From: Candidatus Neomarinimicrobiota bacterium | Lineage (GTDB): Bacteria > Fidelibacterota > Marinisomatia > SCGC-AAA003-L08 > TS1B11 | Assembly: GCA_022560655.1 (NCBI GenBank) | Contig: JADFSS010000012.1 | Span: 1 to 43,984, forward strand | Direction: 5' to 3' | DNA length: 43,984 nt | In this document: positions 6,093 through 43,984 of the stretch, in pieces | How positions within the stretch are numbered: the first letter of the stretch is position 1 | Layout of the letters: every line of letters starts with the position of its first letter | Program-made: the position numbers and the translations under genes | Notes under the pieces: model-generated | What the model saw: the letters and a program-made list of their open reading frames with translations, nothing else | Told to the model about the DNA's origin: nothing | Databases searched by the model: none

Positions 6093-6526
6093 GCCCCAGG
6101 CTGGCCCTGCTGGGCTCCCTGCTGGCGGTGGGGGCCCTCGCAGGGCAGACGGCAGACTCCAGCGACCGGGCCCCCCTAGCGCTGCCGCCTGAGTACTTCC
6201 CAGTCTGGAGCCTGCCCCCAGGCGCGGTACCGCTACCGGCGGCAGACACACTAGCCCTGCCGGGAACGGACTCCCGCCAGCGTCCACGGCTGAAGTCGGC
6301 CCGCTGGCTGGGCGTGGGAGCAGCTGCGTTATTTAGCGTGCTGGCATACCAGACCTACCAGCAGGCCGACGCGGCCTACCGGGCCTACCGGCGCTCGGCC
6401 AATCCCACCGAGCTGGATGCCCTGTTCAAGGAGACTAAGCGCCTGGACCGCCGCGCGGGCTGGTATTATGCCGCGGCGGAGGCTGGGCTCGTACTGGCAA
6501 CGGTGTCGGTTGTCCTGGGCCGATGA
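6089..6526 (+). CDS. Small exported protein with a C-terminal membrane-helix pair
   Basis: This 145-residue protein starts at an ATGA overlap with the BamB-like gene, so it is probably translationally coupled. It has a signal peptide (LALLGSLLAVGALAGQ), a Pro-rich spacer, then two hydrophobic helices (about WLGVGAAALFSVLAYQTY and YYAAAEAGLVLATVSVVLG). They flank a charged helix with YRAYRRSANPTELDALFKE. Exported FCB proteins with this late pair of helices (for example DUF5683-like) look similar, but I cannot assign a family. Coupling on both sides places it in the same envelope module as its neighbours. Confidence 0.7.
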   Translation: MSPRLALLGSLLAVGALAGQTADSSDRAPLALPPEYFPVWSLPPGAVPLPAADTLALPGTDSRQRPRLKSARWLGVGAAALFSVLAYQTYQQADAAYRAYRRSANPTELDALFKETKRLDRRAGWYYAAAEAGLVLATVSVVLGR

Positions 6527-7785
6527 TGCGCGGGGCGCTGCTGCTGGCCGGGCTGCTGACCTTGGCCTGCTCGGACCGGGCGCGATCCAATCCCCTTGAC
6601 CCCCTGAATCCGGTCTCCCACGGCGCGCCGACGGGTTTCCACGCCGCCACCAACCGCGACACCGCCCACCTTGTCTGGCAGTCCATGGACGTGGATGGCC
6701 TGTTGGGCTACCGGATCCATCGTGGTGTCGGCAACAATCCGCTGGCGGAGCTGGACACCGTTCAGCCAGCGGTTACCCGCTTCATGGATACACCGCTGCA
6801 ATACGACACGCGCTACGCGTATGCGGTACAGGCGATCACCCCGGAGGGGCAGCCAGCCATTTCGACGCCCGACACGGTGGTGCCGGGACCGCACAATTTC
6901 TGGTTGGCCGACTTTAACCGCGGCAGTGTTGAGCGGGTGACATACGACGGCGGTCACTTGCTTGGCCAGCGGCAGCTGATTTCCCCGGAGGCGGTGGCGT
7001 ACCTGCCGCAGGAGGGGCTGTTGTGGGTGGCCGATTTCTTTGACCGGACCGTGTTGCTGCTGGATGCCGGCCTGCGCGAGCTGCTCACGATCCGCCTGCC
7101 GGGGACGCCTATCGAGCTGGCCGCTGATGAGGGCGGCTCAGCGGTCTACGTTCTGCAGATGGACCCCGATTCGATTTACCACCTGGGGACCGGGGGCCAG
7201 GTCCTGGAGGCGTTTGGCGCGCCAGCGGAGGTGAGCATCGGCGGCTCCCTGGCATATAATGGTGTAACGGGTGCCCTCTGGCTGGGCCAGCCGGTGACAA
7301 CAACACAGGGCCGGGTCTATCACCGGGCGCTGGGCGCAGGAGGCGACTGGGCCTTGGCCGCCAGCGGGCCACCCCCCCGCCGCCTGGCCGCCGACCCCAT
7401 CAACGGCGGCTGCTGGGTGGCGACCGATGCGGGGGTCGTCAAACTCGATCCGGCGGGAGGCAGGACGACGTTTCTCCCGGAGATGCAGGTCTGGGACGTA
7501 AGCGTGAATACTGCCAACGGCGACTGCTATTACGTGGGCTGGATACAGGCGGAGGACCGCTGGCAGGCGGGGCGCATCCACGGCTGGCCGGATGCCAAGA
7601 TTGCCGTCATCCTGGACAATAGTTACACCTCCCTCGTCCGCATTCAGGCGCTGCCGGGTCCAGGACAGACCGGGTTTATTACCAGCCAATCCACCACCGG
7701 CCGCATCCTCCGATTTGACGGGGCCGGCCAGCTCATGGGCGTGCTGGAAAACTACAGTTTTCCCCTGGAATTCGCGCTGGAATAA
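6523..7785 (+). CDS. Lipoprotein with fibronectin-III-like domain and beta-propeller
   Basis: The start ATG overlaps the preceding stop (ATGATG at 6523). The 420-residue product has a signal peptide and lipobox (LLLAGLLTLAC). An FN3-like beta sandwich covers about residues 35-120 (APTGFHAATNRDTAHLVW ... YRIHRGVG ... YAYAVQAITPEGQP). The remainder is an NHL/SMP-30-like propeller with blades such as FWLADFNRGSVERVTYDGG and GLLWVADFFDRTVLLLD. It is likely a surface or periplasmic binding protein; no catalytic residues stand out. It is the last member of the coupled envelope cluster. A 69-base gap follows before the symporter gene. Confidence 0.75.
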   Translation: MMRGALLLAGLLTLACSDRARSNPLDPLNPVSHGAPTGFHAATNRDTAHLVWQSMDVDGLLGYRIHRGVGNNPLAELDTVQPAVTRFMDTPLQYDTRYAYAVQAITPEGQPAISTPDTVVPGPHNFWLADFNRGSVERVTYDGGHLLGQRQLISPEAVAYLPQEGLLWVADFFDRTVLLLDAGLRELLTIRLPGTPIELAADEGGSAVYVLQMDPDSIYHLGTGGQVLEAFGAPAEVSIGGSLAYNGVTGALWLGQPVTTTQGRVYHRALGAGGDWALAASGPPPRRLAADPINGGCWVATDAGVVKLDPAGGRTTFLPEMQVWDVSVNTANGDCYYVGWIQAEDRWQAGRIHGWPDAKIAVILDNSYTSLVRIQALPGPGQTGFITSQSTTGRILRFDGAGQLMGVLENYSFPLEFALE

Positions 7786-9337: not shown

Positions 9338-10246
9338 ATGAATCTTACCCGCGGGAACCCGCTGCTACCCGAACTGGTCCTCCTGCTGGCGGTGTTTATC
9401 TGGGGCGCCACTTTCACGGTGGTCAAGCAGGCCCTGGAATTCACATCACCGTTCATGTTCATGACCCTGCGCTTTGCCATAGCCCTGGCCATCATCTCCG
9501 TAGCGAGCGCGCCGAGGCTGGGCGCCATCACGCGGCGGGAACTGCTGGGGGGCGCCATCACCGGGGTTGCCCTGTTCGCCGGATTCGCCTTCCAGACCTG
9601 GGGCCTGGTCTATACCAGCGCCAGCAAATCGGCCTTCATCACCGGTCTGAATGTGGTGCTGGTGCCCATCATGCTGTTTGGGTTCAACCGTCGGCCGATT
9701 GCGGGCAAGCGCTGGGCGGCGGTGGGGCTGGCCACATTGGGCCTGTTACTGCTGACAGACCCCACCAGCGCCGCCGGACTCAACCGTGGTGACGTGCTCA
9801 CCGTGGGTTGTGCCGCCGCCTTTGCAGGGCAGATCATATTTCTGAGCATCTATGCACCCACTGTCAACACGCTGCGCTACTTCTGGGTGCAGCTGATCAC
9901 CGTCACCACCCTGGCGGCGGCCGCCACGCTGGCTGTGGGTGGCTGGCGAGTGACGCCAACGGCCACGCTATGGTGGAGCCTGGGCATCACCGGTGTGCTT
10001 GGCACCGCCCTGGCCTTCCTGGCACAAACCTGGGCGCAGCGACGCACCTCGCCGACCCGCACGGCCCTCATCCTGACGATGGAGCCGGTTGTCGGGGCGC
10101 TCTTTGCCGTCGTCGTGGCCGGAGAAACGCTCCCGGCGACCGCGTGGTTGGGGGGCATCATTGTGGTTGCGGCGATTGTGTGGTCCGAGCTGGGGGTGAG
10201 CGGGAGAGAAGCGCTCAGGACGAGAGGTGCGACACCAGAGCCTTGA
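9338..10246 (+). CDS. EamA-family (drug/metabolite transporter) permease
   Basis: The ATG at 9338, two bases after the symporter stop, gives 302 residues starting MNLTRGNPLLPELVLLLA. An upstream in-frame start at 9302 would sit inside the symporter gene. Ten hydrophobic helices are organised as two EamA halves: the first contains FIWGATFTVVKQALEF and FITGLNVVLVPIML, the second GTALAFLAQTWAQRRTSPTR and ALILTMEPVVGALFAVV. The conserved E-P in the last repeat is typical. Its substrate cannot be predicted. Its 3' end overlaps the convergent dehydroquinase-like gene by 32 bases. Confidence 0.85.
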   Translation: MNLTRGNPLLPELVLLLAVFIWGATFTVVKQALEFTSPFMFMTLRFAIALAIISVASAPRLGAITRRELLGGAITGVALFAGFAFQTWGLVYTSASKSAFITGLNVVLVPIMLFGFNRRPIAGKRWAAVGLATLGLLLLTDPTSAAGLNRGDVLTVGCAAAFAGQIIFLSIYAPTVNTLRYFWVQLITVTTLAAAATLAVGGWRVTPTATLWWSLGITGVLGTALAFLAQTWAQRRTSPTRTALILTMEPVVGALFAVVVAGETLPATAWLGGIIVVAAIVWSELGVSGREALRTRGATPEP

Positions 10247-10649
10247 GTGCCCCGGCCAGCTGCTCCCCATCGGGACCCGCCGCGCTCAGCACCGCCACAT
10301 CTCGAAAGACGGCATCTTCTTCCAGGGCCCACGGTCCCGGCTCCGGTGTCAGCTGGAAGACGGCCACCGGCAGGCCGACCAGCGTGAGCGTCTCGCGGAG
10401 GAGCAGGCCCGTGCGCGCCCATATACCCGGTATGAGCAGGACGCCGGCCACCTTCCGGCGCTGGCGTTGAACGAGTTTGCTGGCCGCGGCTTCGTCCTGG
10501 AGCTGGGCAATGTGCAATTCTACACTCAACCCGGCTGCCTGACGGCGGAGAGCACGGTTCAGCTTGTCCAGGGTTAGCCGGCCACCCGCAGCTCGAGATA
10601 CCAGACCGAGCAGATTGAGGTTGGGGCCGTACAGGACCAATATTCGCAT
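10215..10649 (-). CDS. Type II dehydroquinase-like protein lacking catalytic residues
   Basis: This 144-residue protein opens with MRILVLYGPNLNLLG, the hallmark N-terminus of type II 3-dehydroquinate dehydratase (AroQ), and has the length of that family. The flavodoxin-like pattern continues (TLDKLNRALRR, VAGVLLIPGIWART, LVGLPVAVFQLTP, FRDVAVLSAAGPDG). However, the positions that carry catalysis in AroQ have changed. The R-E-P-x-x-Y-G loop with the catalytic Tyr reads LVSRAAGG, QSNxEG reads AQLQDEA, N-P-G-A-x-x-H reads IPGIWAR, and E-V-H-x-S-N reads VFQLTP. It therefore cannot be a normal dehydratase. It sits 28 bases downstream of the Nudix gene on the same strand and overlaps the convergent EamA gene. 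Confidence 0.75.
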   Translation of the reverse strand: MRILVLYGPNLNLLGLVSRAAGGRLTLDKLNRALRRQAAGLSVELHIAQLQDEAAASKLVQRQRRKVAGVLLIPGIWARTGLLLRETLTLVGLPVAVFQLTPEPGPWALEEDAVFRDVAVLSAAGPDGEQLAGALKALVSHLSS

Positions 10650-10677: not shown

Positions 10678-11223
10678 CTACGCCCCGCCGGGAGCACCGG
10701 GCACTGCCTGCAAGATAACATCGGGAATGGTCATACCTTCGAGGTACATGCGAATGAGCTCCCGATGGCAGGCGAACACCACCGGGGGCAGGTGTTGCCA
10801 GTCGAAGAAGGTCGCCTCGACGGCATCGTCGCCGGGTGCCAGCTCGCCCGATATGCCGTCGGCCGTGCAGCCAATGACCAGCACGTCGCCCCGGACGCCG
10901 CCTGGATGGGGGCAAACGCCCAGCAGTTTCAAGGTCTCCGCGGTGAGGCCGGTCTCTTCGGTCAGTTCTCTGCCAGCGGCCTGGGTCAGGCTTTCACGCA
11001 GCTCCATGAAACCGCCCGGCAGGCTCCAGTGGCCTTTGCCAGGGGGCACACCGCGCCTGATAAGCAGCAGTCGCCCTGCCGCGACCACCAAGATAACCAC
11101 GGCGGGGAGGGGATTCTCATAGTGGATCGTGCCGCAGTTGGGACAGACCTGCCGGGAACGCCCATCAAACTGCCGGGTCTGATTCTGGGCCCCACAGTGG
11201 GAGCAGTATATCAGGTTGCCCAC
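10678..11223 (-). CDS. Nudix hydrolase with N-terminal zinc ribbon
   Basis: This 181-residue protein has a four-Cys zinc ribbon (C7, C10, C27, C30) followed by a Nudix domain. A complete Nudix box runs from G71 to L93, with E77, R85-E86, E89-E90 and G92 in the canonical GX5EX7REUXEEXGU spacing. The zinc-ribbon/Nudix arrangement is shared with NADH pyrophosphatase (NudC-type) and with ADP-ribose/nucleotide hydrolases; the NudC-specific SQPWPFPxS motif is absent, so the substrate is open. The start ATG at 11223 lies in the divergent region facing the PfkB gene. It probably shares a transcript with the dehydroquinase-like gene. Confidence 0.85.
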   Translation of the reverse strand: MGNLIYCSHCGAQNQTRQFDGRSRQVCPNCGTIHYENPLPAVVILVVAAGRLLLIRRGVPPGKGHWSLPGGFMELRESLTQAAGRELTEETGLTAETLKLLGVCPHPGGVRGDVLVIGCTADGISGELAPGDDAVEATFFDWQHLPPVVFACHRELIRMYLEGMTIPDVILQAVPGAPGGA

Positions 11224-33295: not shown

Positions 33296-34854
33296 TGGCC
33301 TCAACTGGTCATGCAAGCAACGAAGCGATCCTCGCGGCAGCCCGGGCCGAGGCACTGCTGGGCGGCGGTAAGGAGCGACTGCAGACACAGCACGACAAGG
33401 GCAAACTCACTGCCCGGGAGCGGCTGGACCTCTTTCTGGACGAGGGTTCGTTCACCGAGCTGGACATGTTTGTCCGTCACCATTCACATGAATTGGGGCT
33501 GGAGAATAATCGGCCACTGGGTGACGGTGTCGTCACCGGCTATGGCACTGTGGACGGACGGAAGGTATTCGTATTTGCCCACGACTTCACCGTGTTTGGC
33601 GGTTCGCTCTCTGAGTCATTTGCCGGGAAGATTTGCAAGATCATGGACCTGGCCATGAAAGTGGGCGTGCCGGTGATTGCATTCAACGACAGTGGCGGAG
33701 CGCGCATTCAGGAAGGGGTGGTGAGCCTGGGAGGATACGCCGACATTTTCCTGCGCAACACGCTGGCCAGCGGCGTCATCCCCCAGATCAGCCTGGTACT
33801 GGGCCCCTGTGCCGGCGGTGCCGTCTATTCACCAGCCATAACCGACTTCATCATCATGGTCAAGGGCACCAGCCATATGTTTGTCACCGGACCCAATGTG
33901 GTCAAGACGGTGACCCACGAGGAGGTCTCGTTCGAGGAGCTGGGCGGGGCCGAGACTCACGCCACCAAGAGCGGCGTCGCTCACTTCGCCTGCGAGAATG
34001 AGGTGGAGGCCATCGGCTACGCGCGGCAGCTGCTCAGCTACCTGCCGCAGAACAACCTGGAGAGCGCGCCGCGGGTCAACACCAATGATCCTGGCAGCCG
34101 TGAGGAGGTCGCCCTGGACAGCCTGGTGCCGGAAAACCCCAACAAACCTTACGATATGCACCTGGTCATCGAAGCGGTGGTGGACCAGGCGGAATTTCTC
34201 GAGGTTCACCGCCAGTTCGCCGCCAACCTTATTGTGGGGTTCGCGCGCATTGAGGGCAGAGCGGTGGGTATCGTAGCCAACCAGCCCGCACATCTGGCTG
34301 GAGTTCTGGACATTGACGCCGCCACCAAGGGGGCGCGCTTCGTGCGCTTCTGTGATGCTTTCAACATTCCATTGGTCACATTCGTGGACGTCCCAGGTTT
34401 CCTGCCGGGAACCGATCAGGAATGGCGGGGCATTATCCGGCAGGGAGCCAAGCTGCTGTTTGCCTACTGCGAAGCGACGGTTCCCAAACTGACCATCATC
34501 ACGCGGAAGGCGTACGGCGGCGCTTACGACGTGATGAGCTCGAAGCACATTCGCGGTGATATCAATTTGGCCTGGCCAGGCGCCGAGCTGGCAGTGATGG
34601 GACCCCGGGGTGCCGTGGAGGTGCTGTGGAAGCGGGACATTGAGGCCGCCGACGATCCTGAGGCCCTCACCAACAAACTGATTCAGGAGTACCGGGAGAT
34701 GTTCGCCAATCCATACGTGGCCGCCGAACGGGGGTTTCTCGACGACATCATCCTCCCCCGGCAAACGCGGCCCCGCCTGGCCGCCGCGCTGAGCATGCTG
34801 GCAACCAAAGTGGATACCAATCCACGCAAGAAGCACGGCAATATTCCACTGTGA
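33295..34854 (+). CDS. Propionyl/methylmalonyl-CoA carboxyltransferase subunit
   Basis: This 519-residue carboxyltransferase has the crotonase-fold halves of PccB/MmdA proteins: [85 protein letters not shown], then [38 protein letters not shown] and [16 protein letters not shown]. It either moves CO2 from biotin onto propionyl-CoA or runs the reverse decarboxylation coupled to a sodium pump; the sequence alone does not decide, and no biotin carrier is encoded here. The ATG overlaps the B12-subunit stop by one base. The giant repeat gene starts four bases before its end. Confidence 0.94.
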
Positions 34855-37800
34855 GCGAAGCAGGCCTACACCAGCCGGAAACGTTGAGCCGGCAGGAGCG
34901 GAAGCGGCGGCTGGAACACCACTTCGCATCGAATTTCGATTCGCTGGCCTACCCTCTGCTGGCCGAGTTCTACTTCGCCGAGGGTGACTCGAAGCGGGCG
35001 CGCAAGGTTTGCGCCATCGGCCTTAAGCAGCACCCCAATCATGCGCTCGGTTTGTACATGTTGGCGAAGTTGACCATTCGTGAAGGCCAGCTGGAGAAGA
35101 CTGAGGAACTGCTGCAGCTGGCATTGGCTAGCGACAGCCACCATGTGGAAGCGGCCGAATTGCTGGTGGCGGTGCAGGAGCGCCTGAAACGCCAGGGATC
35201 CATTCTTGAGCAGGCCTATCGCCAATTATTGGTAGCAAATCCGCTGAGCCGGGGCGCCCGGCAAAGACTTGAACGCATTGAGGCGGACCGGAACATGGTG
35301 CTGGAAGTAACGGCCCACCTGCAGGTCGAAGAGACCGGTGAAGAGCCCCCACTTGGCGCCGCCAGAAACAGCACGGCAGCCATAGCGCCACCGCGGAAGC
35401 AAACGGCCACGCCGAAGAAACAGGGTGACGTTGCCCCCGGTGCTCCTCCCGTGCGGAGTTCGACCCCAGCAAAGGTTGCGGCACCTACGGAACAGGCTCA
35501 TCAGGCAGCTGGGGATGAGTTGACCTGGGAAGCCAACATCAAACGCCTGGGCGCGACTGTATCTCTGACAGGCGCGCAACAGGCCGAGTTGGAGGGGCCC
35601 ACCCCTGACAGCGAGCCTGAGTCCCCCGCTGAGCCGGCAGCCGCACCCGAGGTTATTCCCGCTATGCTCAAGCCCCCAGCGCCGCCCATCGATGTAGGTC
35701 CCACTGGTACTGGACAGGCCAAACAGTCAGTTGCCCCTGCTACCGGACCGATGACAGCAGAACGGACCCATGGGGAGTCGCCGTACACCGGGGATGAGGT
35801 CGCGGACAAGTCCACGGACGTGAAGCCATCAATGGTCAGCGGTAAAGGGGCGGGGCGGGAAGATCGAATGGCCCCTGCCAGCGTCGCGCGAGAGCCGATC
35901 AGCATGGAATCGGGCTCCCTGGAAATGGGTATTGGCGCCGACGAAAACACTGCACAGCCGGGCGGGGTGCGCACTAATCAAGAGGAGAGTCAAGCGGCTA
36001 CGGAGGTGCTTGAGTCTTTAGCGATAGCGACACTGGAAACGGAGCCAGAGGAACTGTTGGCGGTGCTGGATGACAGGGCGCCGGACGAGCTCAGCTCCAC
36101 GACCGAAACTTTCGAGCCGGGGGCGGATGCAGAGCCTACAACCGAAAGCATGGATCCCGACCAGATCGAGGACACCATGACTGCCCTGGAAGAGGCGGAA
36201 CGGAATGGCTCCAGAAGTATCTGGCCTGGTGAACATGACCTGCCGGAGTCAGATGAACTCCCCGGCGGAGACCCGACCCGCCGCGGACCCGAGGACAGTT
36301 TGCAGGCCGCCCCGCCCGTATTGCCGGCAGACCAGCTGGGGCCGGTCCCCGCGATGGAAGGAGAAGACGAGCCAGCCTCGGCAGCTTTGGCGCTGGATGA
36401 CAATCTCGATCCGGGCGGCGGCGAGTCGCCTGCGTCGAGTAAGTCCGTTGAAGAAATTGACACCGACGGGACCGTCGCACTGCCAATGCGGGGCACCCCC
36501 TTTCAGCCTGGCGATACCGAGTTACCCTCCTCCGCCAGCCTGGCCCCCGCTGAATCGACCGATGTTGACGTTACCCTTGCAGACCAGCATACCCGAGCCC
36601 ACCCGGCCGAGGCTGGCGAAGCGCATGAGGATGCCGATAGCGATCAAGAGTTGCGGGACGAAGTCAATTCGGAGACTTTTGAGCAGGCCAGCCCTGATAA
36701 TGACGTAGAGGGCGAAACACCCGCGCTGGAAGAACAGACCGAGGACGGCGGGCTGGACGAAATCAGGGGCACACCTGAGCAGGAGTCCCCTTTCCAGCCC
36801 GGCGATGCAGCAGCTGCTTCACCTACCTACCAGTCGACCATCGCCGGCTCAGATCACGAGGACGAAGACATCGATCTGATGCCGGAGGGCGCGCGCTCCC
36901 CCATGGCGGGCGGACCAACCACTGAGGATGAAGCGGAGCTCGAGCAGGCGCTCACCGCCGATTCGGAGGCCACCGATCTCGACGGCGATACCCCCGGTGA
37001 TGACGACACGACTGAGGTCGGCGATCGTGAAAACGCTAATGGAGACGAGGCCAACGAAACCCCTTTCCAGCCCGGTGAGGCCGCAGCTGCATCACCTGCT
37101 TTCCAGTCGACCATCACCAGCTCAGATCACGAGGACGAAGACATCGATCTGATGCCGGAGGGCGCGCGCTCCCCCGTGGCAGGCGGAGCCACCACTGGGG
37201 ATGAAGCGGAGCTCGAGCAGGCGGCCGCCGCCGATTCGGAGACCACCGCTATCGACGGCGATACTCCCGGTGAGGACGACACGACTGAGGTCGGCGATCG
37301 TGAACACGCTGACGGAGACGAGGCCAACGAAACCCCTTTCCAGCCCGGCGATACCGAGTCGCCCTCCTCCGCCAGCCTGGCCCCCGCTGAATCGACCGAT
37401 GTTGACGTTACCGGTGCAGACCAGCATACCCGAGCCCACCCCGCCGAGGCTGGCGAAGCGGATGAGGATGCCGATAGCGATCAAGAGTTGCGGGACGAAG
37501 TCAATTCGGAGACTCTGGAGCAGGCCAGCCCTGATGGTGATGTTGAGGGAGAAACACCTGCGCTGGAAGAACAGACCGAGGACGGCGGGCTGGATGAAAT
37601 CAGGGCCACACCTGAGCAGGAGTCCCCTTTCCAGCCTGGCGATGAAACAGCTGCCTCATCCGCTTTCCAGTCGACCATCACCAGCTCAGATCACGAGGAC
37701 GAAGACATCGATCTGATGCCGGAGGGCGCGCGCTCCCCCGTGGCAGGCGGAGCAACCACTGAGGATGAAGCGGAGCTCGAGCAGGCGCTCACCGCCGATT

Positions 37801-39845
37801 CGGAGACCACCGATATCGACGGCGATACCCCCGGTGATGACGACACGACTGAGGCCGGCGATCGTGAACACGCCAATGGAGACGAGGCCAACGAAACCCC
37901 TTTCCAACCCGGTGAGGCCGCCACGCCCACAGCCACAGATCAGCTCCGCCGGGAAGAAGCAGCGATGGAAGGTGAGCAGGACCTGATTGAGGCCGGTCAG
38001 GAGCGTGTGTTAACGGCAGATAAGCGAGTGTCCGATTCGAAGGCCGACCCGTTGGAGGTGGCCGACTCTCATGCCCTGGACCAAGACATCAGTTCCGGCG
38101 AGGCCGACGGAATAACGCCGGGGGCCACTGACGACACCGAGCGTGACAGCGCCATCACCGAGATACCTGAGCCTGCCTTCCGACCGGGCCAGGATACCAC
38201 ACCTGGCGGTGAAGCTCAGCTTCCGGAACAGTCGTCTGCCAGCGAGTCCATTGACAGCGGTCAGGCTCCGGAGTCTGCATCACCAGATGATCAGTCTGCC
38301 CACAATCAAGGAATGGGTGCTGATGACTTGATGACCGGAAGCGAGTCCAGGACTCCCGATTCTGAGGAAGATCATACCCGGCCCGGGGGGGATACGCCGA
38401 GCCTGGATGCCACGCTTGGTACCGATGATGCCCCCGAGCCAGCTGCCAGCAGCGATGATGCTACGGAGGCTGTCTTCCAGCCTGGTGAAGCAACGGGGCT
38501 GCCCGCCGACGGATTGACGCAGGAGACGCAAGCTGACATCACTCCTGCCGCTACGCCGTTACAGGGGGAGTCCTATCCTCATGATGTTGCGCCACGGGAT
38601 CAGGATCGTGGTGAAGAGCGGGATTCATCTGCGACGTACGCATCAGATACCGAAAAAATGTCCGGCGATCGTGAAGCACTGGATGGCGAGACCCCCAGCG
38701 AGGATGAGTCGAGTGAGGCAAGCGGGATTGAGGTCGGGGACGATGCTGAAGGTGCGCCAGCCCCCTTCCAGCCTGGGACGGGGTCCTCGACGGTTGCTCG
38801 TGACGAGGTAGTGCCTGGCGGCGAGGGGAGCGATACCGAGGGCGCTGACGTGGCCGCAGCGGATCCCTTTGAATCGGATGGGCCGGTCGACGCAGAACAC
38901 ACCGCCGGGTCTGTCAGCGCTGATGCTGACGGCGGTACGGTTGCTGTTCAGCCCCAGAAGGATGAGCCCTTGCCAGGCGCCGAGTCCGGTGGCGACGCTA
39001 CGCCCGAACCTGAAGCTGTGCCCGAGGATGGGCCCGGTCTCGATGGCAATAATGATGAGACATTTCAGCCAGGAAAATCCGCGGTCAGTGAAGGTGACGG
39101 GCTACCGCAAGGCGAGTCCAAGGAGCAAACATCCCCCGATGAGCTTGTTCGTGCCGGAGGCGGACCCGACGCCGAAACGACTCTGAATGACGATGCCGAA
39201 AATGACCGGGCCGTACTCGACCGTAAGGACCTTGTGACCGGAACCCCCGCGGACGAAGCCAACCTGGATTCAGGGACGGCTGACCCGGATCGTGGCGCCG
39301 ACAGCGAAGTGGCCCTGGATAGCGATGATCTGGGCGCAGCACCCTTTGAGCCTGGCGACAAGTCAGAAGCAGCCGAAGAGTCGCCCAGCGAGGTGGATAG
39401 TTCGCAGGAGGCAGAGCGCGCAGGCGGGGATGATTCACAAGAGCCCTACCGGTCCGATATCGTCATGCTTGAGAAGGCAGCAGATCAGGAGGCCGAAGAC
39501 CTGGACAAGCTGGCCCACGCGGGCGGGGACATGCCTGGAGAGCGGTTTGAGCCTACCCGGATCAAGCCTAAAGCTCCTGACGACGCGCCGGAGACGGACG
39601 ACGAAACAGTCACGACTGAAAGGGAAGCCGACCAGGAAGAGGCTGATGCCGAACGTGACGCTCTGCAGATTGATCCCAAGCTGGCCACCTTTACTCTGGC
39701 GACCATTTACAAGGTGCAGGGACTGTATCATCAGGCCCTACAGGTGCTGGATATGCTGGAGGAAAAGGGCGCTGATCCGGAACGCATCAACGCCGAGCGC
39801 GATTCCATCCGCAAAGTGATGACCTCCGACACGAAATCGGAATGA
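34851..39845 (+). CDS. Giant acidic repeat protein with TPR-like ends
   Basis: The GTG start overlaps the carboxyltransferase stop (GTGA). The 1664-residue product has no signal peptide or membrane segment. Residues about 8-150 are TPR-like helices ([40 protein letters not shown]). Residues about 160-1580 are extremely rich in Asp, Glu, Ser, Thr, Pro, Gly and Ala with almost no bulky residues, and are probably disordered. Residues about 1605-1660 return to a TPR-like helix pair ([20 protein letters not shown]). Within the disordered part a [P/T/V]-F-[Q/E/R]-P-G motif starts at F551, 648, 739, 830, 927, 1018, 1110, 1209, 1306, 1405 and 1499, with outliers F421 and W458 (WPGE). I do not recognise a family; a cytoplasmic scaffold is one reading. 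The M24 peptidase gene overlaps its stop. Confidence 0.85.
36501..37901 (+). repeat. Near-identical coding tandem repeats, order A-B-B-A-B
   Basis: Five in-frame units start at an F-Q-P-G codon set: A1 36501-36791, B1 36792-37064, B2 37065-37337, A2 37338-37628, B3 37629-37901. A units are 291 bases (97 codons) and B units 273 bases (91 codons). Copies of each type match over most of their length, with long identical runs such as the GATCACGAGGACGAAGACAT segment in all three B units. A and B share the ending T-P, 24 residues, then F-Q-P-G. Confidence 0.9.
37902..39350 (+). repeat. Diverged continuation of the ~95-residue repeat array
   Basis: After the near-identical block the FxPG motif continues at codons starting 38178, 38475, 38766, 39063 and 39345, spaced 92, 99, 97, 99 and 94 residues. 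DNA identity is low, but each unit keeps acidic composition, and most keep a T-P about 20-26 residues before the F (for example [10 protein letters not shown] before PAPFQPG). Confidence 0.7.
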
Positions 39846-43599: not shown

Positions 43600-43984
43600 C
43601 TACTTTAGTATGACCAGTTTGCGCGTTACGGCAAGATTGCCTTGCCGCAGACGATACAGATAAAGGCCCGATCCAACGCCCTCCCCGGCCCAACTGGCCT
43701 GATGGCGTCCCCTGGTCTGGACCTCATTCACAAGGGTCGCAACCCACCGCCCAGCGATATCGTAGACCGTCAGCGTAACCTGTCCTGACTGGGAAAGGTC
43801 GTACCGAAGCGTCGTGCCTGCGTTGAAGGGATTGGGAAAGTTCTGCGCCAGCTGGATTTGGCTGGGCAGGGGATCGGCGGAGGGACGGGTATCGACCGCG
43901 ACCCAGTCCACCTCCAGCACGTAGAGTCCGGTTTGCATGTCGGAAGCAATGATTTTGCCCGATTCGAAGTAGGGATAGACCGAC
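43600..43984 (-). CDS. C-terminal part of a choice-of-anchor B surface protein with T9SS-type sorting domain
   Basis: The frame is open to the window edge, so the 5' end is missing; the ATG at 43938 is internal. The visible part begins SVYPYFESGKIIASDMQTGLY, the last LVIVD-type blade of choice-of-anchor B proteins. After a linker comes a classic type A sorting domain: LAQNFPNPFNAGTTLRYDLS, VTLTVYDIAGRWVATLV, SGLYLYRLRQG and the ending TRKLVILK. In FCB bacteria such tails direct export through the outer membrane and are cleaved. This is the clearest lineage marker in the window and implies a type IX-like system elsewhere in the genome. Confidence 0.9.
   Translation of the reverse strand, partial: SVYPYFESGKIIASDMQTGLYVLEVDWVAVDTRPSADPLPSQIQLAQNFPNPFNAGTTLRYDLSQSGQVTLTVYDIAGRWVATLVNEVQTRGRHQASWAGEGVGSGLYLYRLRQGNLAVTRKLVILK

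Follow-up and report, generated by a model that had tools for sequence, protein, structure and literature searches.

In a 43,984-nt stretch of DNA from Candidatus Neomarinimicrobiota, here called the window, we found a gene (10215..10649, minus strand) for a protein with the type II dehydroquinase (AroQ) fold and none of the seven catalytic residues checked, as seen from its PF01220 match, an AlphaFold model and a residue alignment. The retained fold has probably taken on a different role. Our best reading, drawn from sequence comparison and held with about as much belief as doubt, is that of a shikimate-independent small-molecule ligand-binding protein derived from a displaced dehydroquinase. 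The broader account, which we put forward tentatively, with doubt slightly prevailing, is a dehydroquinase displaced throughout the phylum, whose intersubunit pocket was rebuilt around Trp79, Arg/Lys81 and Asp/Glu88 and which may now be a metabolite sensor or a new enzyme, also in aromatic auxotrophs, while sister families still carry the intermediate steps. This points to a new function in an abundant, largely uncultured marine phylum.

An AroQ fold without the dehydroquinase active site

The open reading frame, complement(10215..10649), starts with ATG at 10649 and encodes 144 amino acids with the N-terminus MRILVLYGPNLNLLG. It is intact, as an earlier note made from the sequence alone had described it; that note named no strand, and the gene lies on the minus one. 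The protein matched PF01220 (DHquinase_II) with 50.8 bits (E 1.9e-13; gathering cut-off 23.3), and this was its sole Pfam match at E up to 1. The AlphaFold model (monomer, built on 16 homologues) had a mean pLDDT of 90.9, and its best structural matches were solved type II dehydroquinases, with 3lwz_D at Z 21.0 and rmsd 1.8 over 139 residues. By homology and fold the protein is a member of the AroQ superfamily (PF01220), and both the Pfam score and the Z score agree with the fold named in the earlier note. The fold, the length, the GPNxN loop, the TL of helix 1 and the Q of the QSN motif are common to the window protein and type II 3-dehydroquinate dehydratase (AroQ, PF01220). However, the window protein has none of the seven catalytic residues, is retained where the pathway is absent and stays far under the NCBIfam aroQ equivalog cut-off (TIGR01088; 49.4 bits against a curated 169.85).

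The seven residues, numbered as in M. tuberculosis AroQ, were R19, Y24, N75, H81, H101, R108 and R112. All are replaced in the window protein (R19V, Y24G, N75I, H81R, H101Q, R108P, R112E), which confirms the substitutions noticed earlier, and D88E is also found. According to an excerpt of PMC6011038, Arg19, Tyr24 and the Asp88 of the neighbouring subunit are essential in type II dehydroquinase, and Asn75, His101, His81 and Arg112 contact the substrate. Since none of the seven is kept, Arg19 and Tyr24 among them, the window protein would be expected to no longer dehydrate dehydroquinate.

The comparison AroQs, taken as active from their residues, kept all seven in 35 of 36 cases, the exception being the Bacillus enzyme 1gqo with Phe at position 24. 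Asn75, His81 and Arg112 were each present in 36/36. Among 71 pseudoenzyme sequences we counted Tyr24 in 0/71, Asn75 in 12/71, His81 in 3/71 and Arg112 in 1/71. The pseudoenzymes of the window's class (n=52) still have His101 in 15/52 and Arg19 in 26/52.

Distribution and selection

A homologue of the window protein was present in 51/60 relatives (E up to 1e-4, both AroQ types counted). We searched the genome contigs of 84,980 species with the pattern TLDK[LVI]NRxLR, the single pattern by which presence outside the phylum was judged, and 26 stretches matched, of which 17 were confirmed. Sixteen of the confirmed loci carry Neomarinimicrobiota or Marinimicrobia in their titles and one carries FCB group bacterium; NCBI's current name for the phylum is Fidelibacterota. 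The sequences come mostly from metagenome assemblies. The frame is open in all recovered genomes that were read; about a dozen homologue matches report one internal stop, which we took to lie past the gene end, the listed open frames being 143-234 aa long.

Of 14 pseudoenzyme pairs, one was saturated and the others gave a dN/dS ratio (Nei-Gojobori, own script) of 0.094-0.319 (13 pairs); three pairs of canonical AroQ gave 0.071-0.183. The pseudoenzyme is under purifying selection, with a constraint about equal to or somewhat below that of canonical AroQ. The earlier note had named a gene in decay, with relaxed selection and no homologues sharing its substitutions, as the outcome that would speak against a new role. 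We found the opposite, a clade with these ratios.

A probably displaced lineage with living intermediates

The window's genome has a separate canonical AroQ, as the earlier note proposed to check, at C16:19787 (172.6 bits). It comes right behind aroB, and its contig also carries chorismate synthase further upstream. In the tree this AroQ stands apart from the window protein, a placement by which an origin through recent duplication of this AroQ was rejected. The assemblies G180 and G147, both metagenomic, each hold two canonical AroQ copies, and G180 is without a chorismate synthase match.

The tree has 86 sequences but only 146 columns, a ratio that calls for caution. The class pseudoenzymes (31 rows) grouped together at 99/95, and the 17 rows of families f26-f29 formed a separate group at 100/96. 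All 50 pseudoenzyme rows, the class, f26-f29 and two f24 proteins, came together at 100/97. The variant thus forms a well-supported clade in Candidatus Neomarinimicrobiota, which had been left to check. Seven AroQs of families f23, f30 and f31, with all seven residues kept, adjoin the pseudoenzyme rows, and a 100/100 branch separates the pseudoenzymes and these basal AroQs from the second AroQs and five PDB AroQs. L013 (a run of X) and L107 (a fragment) were excluded from the tree and the residue counts, and 21 further distinct class pseudoenzymes outside the tree were included in the counts.

At L116 the basal AroQ gene of f23 is the last in an operon that also holds aroB, a gene resembling shikimate kinase and other aro-like genes; the aroB clusters with that of L137, and the other names were read from the sequence and a chorismate synthase match at that place. 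In f24 (L137 and L078) the AroQ is half-dead, with the changes Y24F, H81F and R108G. At L137, where R19, N75 and H101 are kept, it lies at 6452-6907 and overlaps the end of aroB, and a canonical AroQ is on another contig.

We read these loci as one AroQ lineage that would have lost its active site stepwise after another enzyme took the reaction over. The phylum's own AroQ type, with the signature TLDK...RxR, would be the apparently functional aroQ in the shikimate operon of the basal families. On the way to the window's class, the dehydroquinase reaction would have passed to AroD or to a different AroQ type. The displaced gene may then have lost the lid tyrosine first and the remaining active site later, with the fold kept, and selection would have retained the protein for a role that can be filled without the shikimate pathway. 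The extant proteins offer a natural series, from intact AroQ (f23, f30, f31) through a half-dead copy in an aro operon (f24) and a partly dead one beside AroD (f26-f29) to a fully dead one without the pathway, so the steps from enzyme to pseudoenzyme are testable with no need of resurrection.

Retention without the shikimate pathway

We compared 59 good genomes of the class (completeness >=90, contamination <=5) in a table compiled by hand from separate profile-search results, in which the pseudoenzyme was called at A3 E <1e-30 and canonical AroQ at PF01220 E <1e-28. Among the AroQ calls, a weaker additional PF01220 match in G049 and G156 may represent a fragment, and the AroQ match of G118 reaches just 9.6e-40. 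The pseudoenzyme was present in 47/59. Of these 47, 29 have both AroQ and chorismate synthase, 16 have neither, one has AroQ only and one chorismate synthase only. The 12 genomes without it divide into nine with AroQ and chorismate synthase, one with AroQ only and two with neither. Because these 12 good genomes do without it, the pseudoenzyme is not essential throughout the class.

The 16 genomes that keep the pseudoenzyme without AroQ and chorismate synthase are also without AroD, and 14 of them have no match for DHQ synthase (aroB), which was matched in all six control genomes. The exceptions are G127 with a clear match (6.3e-33) and G046 with a marginal one (3.6e-6). AroD was found in 10 of the 245 phylum genomes searched, all outside the class, and 8 of these 10 keep a homologue of the f26-f29 group and have no canonical AroQ. 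The pseudoenzyme therefore survives both the replacement of the pathway enzyme, in AroD-bearing genomes, and the loss of the pathway, and its role looks independent of the shikimate pathway.

AroD and chorismate synthase share one contig in seven genomes (G199:C64, G200:C1, G201:C31, G205:C76, G206:C1, G207:C114, G218:C6), which looks like an exchange of the old shikimate genes for a complete block of a different type. With lengths of 504-679 aa, the AroD frames of f27 and f28 suggest fusions.

Gene neighbourhood

A zinc-ribbon Nudix hydrolase gene (10678..11223, minus strand) lies 28 bp upstream of the pseudo-AroQ gene on the same strand. In the window's order the Nudix gene is directly upstream in 30 of 31 pseudoenzyme genomes, and in the exception the two are on different contigs. 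From the 28-bp spacing and the conserved adjacency, the two genes are likely co-transcribed in this order. The adjacency pointed out in the earlier note therefore holds for the order, but it does not extend to the other contexts of the family: the Nudix gene was absent from those we read outside the order, and seven other genomes of the order have it without the pseudoenzyme. The Nudix neighbour, order-restricted and also occurring alone, thus says little on the family-wide function. As an obligate partner it was rejected, with the Nudix alone in those seven genomes and an M23 peptidase gene in its stead at 12 of the 14 distinct loci that lie in the class but outside the order.

The M23 peptidase gene, tested in one representative, lies downstream and starts like a lipoprotein. 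In 11/14 of the loci a small membrane protein with no Pfam match is nearby. In f26-f29 a transglutaminase-domain protein follows downstream in 6/8 loci. These six are L141 (4426-6015, minus strand) and five similar loci, where the protein next to the f26-f29 homologue has a beta-propeller as well as the transglutaminase domain. We saw no partner gene or metabolic pathway common to all the neighbourhoods read (the order, the rest of the class and f26-f29), and with no constant partner, guilt by association does not point to one function.

A rebuilt pocket and the possible roles

In real AroQ the acid at position 88 is contributed by the neighbouring subunit. All 52 class sequences have Trp79, Asn12 and Asp/Glu88 (52/52 each), and 36/52 have Arg or Lys at position 81, where the pseudoenzymes vary between Arg, Lys, Gln, Asn, Ser and others. 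In families f26-f29 position 79 is Leu or Met, not Trp. Such constancy in a rebuilt pocket would speak for a ligand or a new reaction more than for a bare scaffold. The ligand would bind between subunits in the pocket around Trp79, the mostly basic position 81 and the acid at 88, and the ligand-bound state would be passed on to a partner protein.

A second set of conserved residues lies in the TLDK and RxR motifs. The class pseudoenzymes have Lys or Arg at the TLDK lysine in 52/52, R(+9) in 49/52 and Arg or Lys at R+5 in 52/52. The basal AroQs with all catalytic residues have the TLDK Lys, R+3 and R+5, each in 7/7. None of the 29 other AroQs has the TLDK Lys, while some of them have the second Arg of RxR. 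The TLDK Lys and the RxR pair are thus common to the basal AroQs (7/7) and the pseudoenzymes, independent of the tree. The idea that the two motifs form a new binding site was rejected, as basal AroQs with intact residues also have them.

The idea of the earlier note that the dead fold serves a new role is well supported by its evolution. The nucleotide binding it had suggested has no support beyond the order-specific Nudix gene. The main rival of the ligand-binding reading is a neofunctionalised enzyme, which we consider unlikely, if worth keeping in sight. Here the rebuilt pocket (Trp79, Arg/Lys81, Asp/Glu88, Asn12) would catalyse a different reaction, and the protein would be a new enzyme instead of a pseudoenzyme. 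The conserved residues would suit a new catalytic function equally well, the old active-site positions are not drifting freely, as the invariant Trp79 and Asp/Glu88 attest, and the neighbour genes include enzymes such as the Nudix hydrolase and the M23 peptidase. However, position 81 is variable, no obvious nucleophile replaces the lost lid tyrosine and the two lost C-terminal arginines, and the neighbourhoods share no metabolic pathway. Rather improbable to us is a protein-protein scaffold or partner subunit, in which the AroQ oligomer would be a platform and the basic residues of helices 1 and 2 (TLDK..R, RxR) the interface. Their conservation in the class fits such a surface, but the catalytically intact basal AroQs (7/7) already have the same residues, which makes them inherited and no evidence of a new role, and no constant partner gene was seen.

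The two remaining alternatives fare worse. A regulatory subunit that forms mixed oligomers with the active paralogue would be conceivable in the 29/59 good class genomes that hold the pseudoenzyme, canonical AroQ and chorismate synthase together, but we consider it very improbable. The pseudoenzyme persists without AroQ in 16 good class genomes, its homologue does so in 8 of the 10 AroD genomes outside the class, and the tree shows a wide distance between the two AroQ types; the mixed oligomer is largely refuted by this persistence. The loss of the catalytic residues would also be expected of a decaying pseudogene or a residual dehydroquinase, which we find scarcely credible. The frames are open, the clade is ancient and selection is purifying; the pseudogene is rejected by the dN/dS of 0.094-0.319. 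Against residual activity, Arg19 and Tyr24, essential according to the excerpt of PMC6011038, are lost and Asp88 is Glu. PF01220 matches in Fidelibacterota should not be annotated as aroQ.

Comparison with known systems and other features of the window

Judged by titles and the starts of abstracts, we found no description of a dead type II dehydroquinase or of the present gene in the open-access papers searched, and the sole pseudoenzyme match of that search was TrpC-TrpF (PMC11528492, seen as an excerpt). The fungal repressors QutR, GaaX and TanX are, in the excerpted text of PMC10512348, derived from shikimate enzymes like the window protein. However, QutR-type proteins join a type I dehydratase domain (PF01487) to kinase and dehydrogenase domains and have a zinc-cluster activator as partner, whereas the window protein has PF01220 only and no such regulator adjoins its gene. 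In trypanosomatid prozymes, as far as the excerpts of PMC5201418 and PMC3663545 go, a dead paralogue activates the live enzyme. The likeness lies in a dead and a live copy in one genome, but the pseudo-AroQ also persists in genomes without the live enzyme.

Elsewhere in the window, the plus-strand frame at 34851-39845 encodes a 1664-aa acidic protein with near-identical internal repeats carrying FQPG motifs. The repeats are 300-nt units, with three copies at 90-100% and two copies at 94-100% identity. The C-terminal part of a minus-strand open reading frame at 43600-43938 resembles, by eye, a type A secretion sorting domain of the FCB group.
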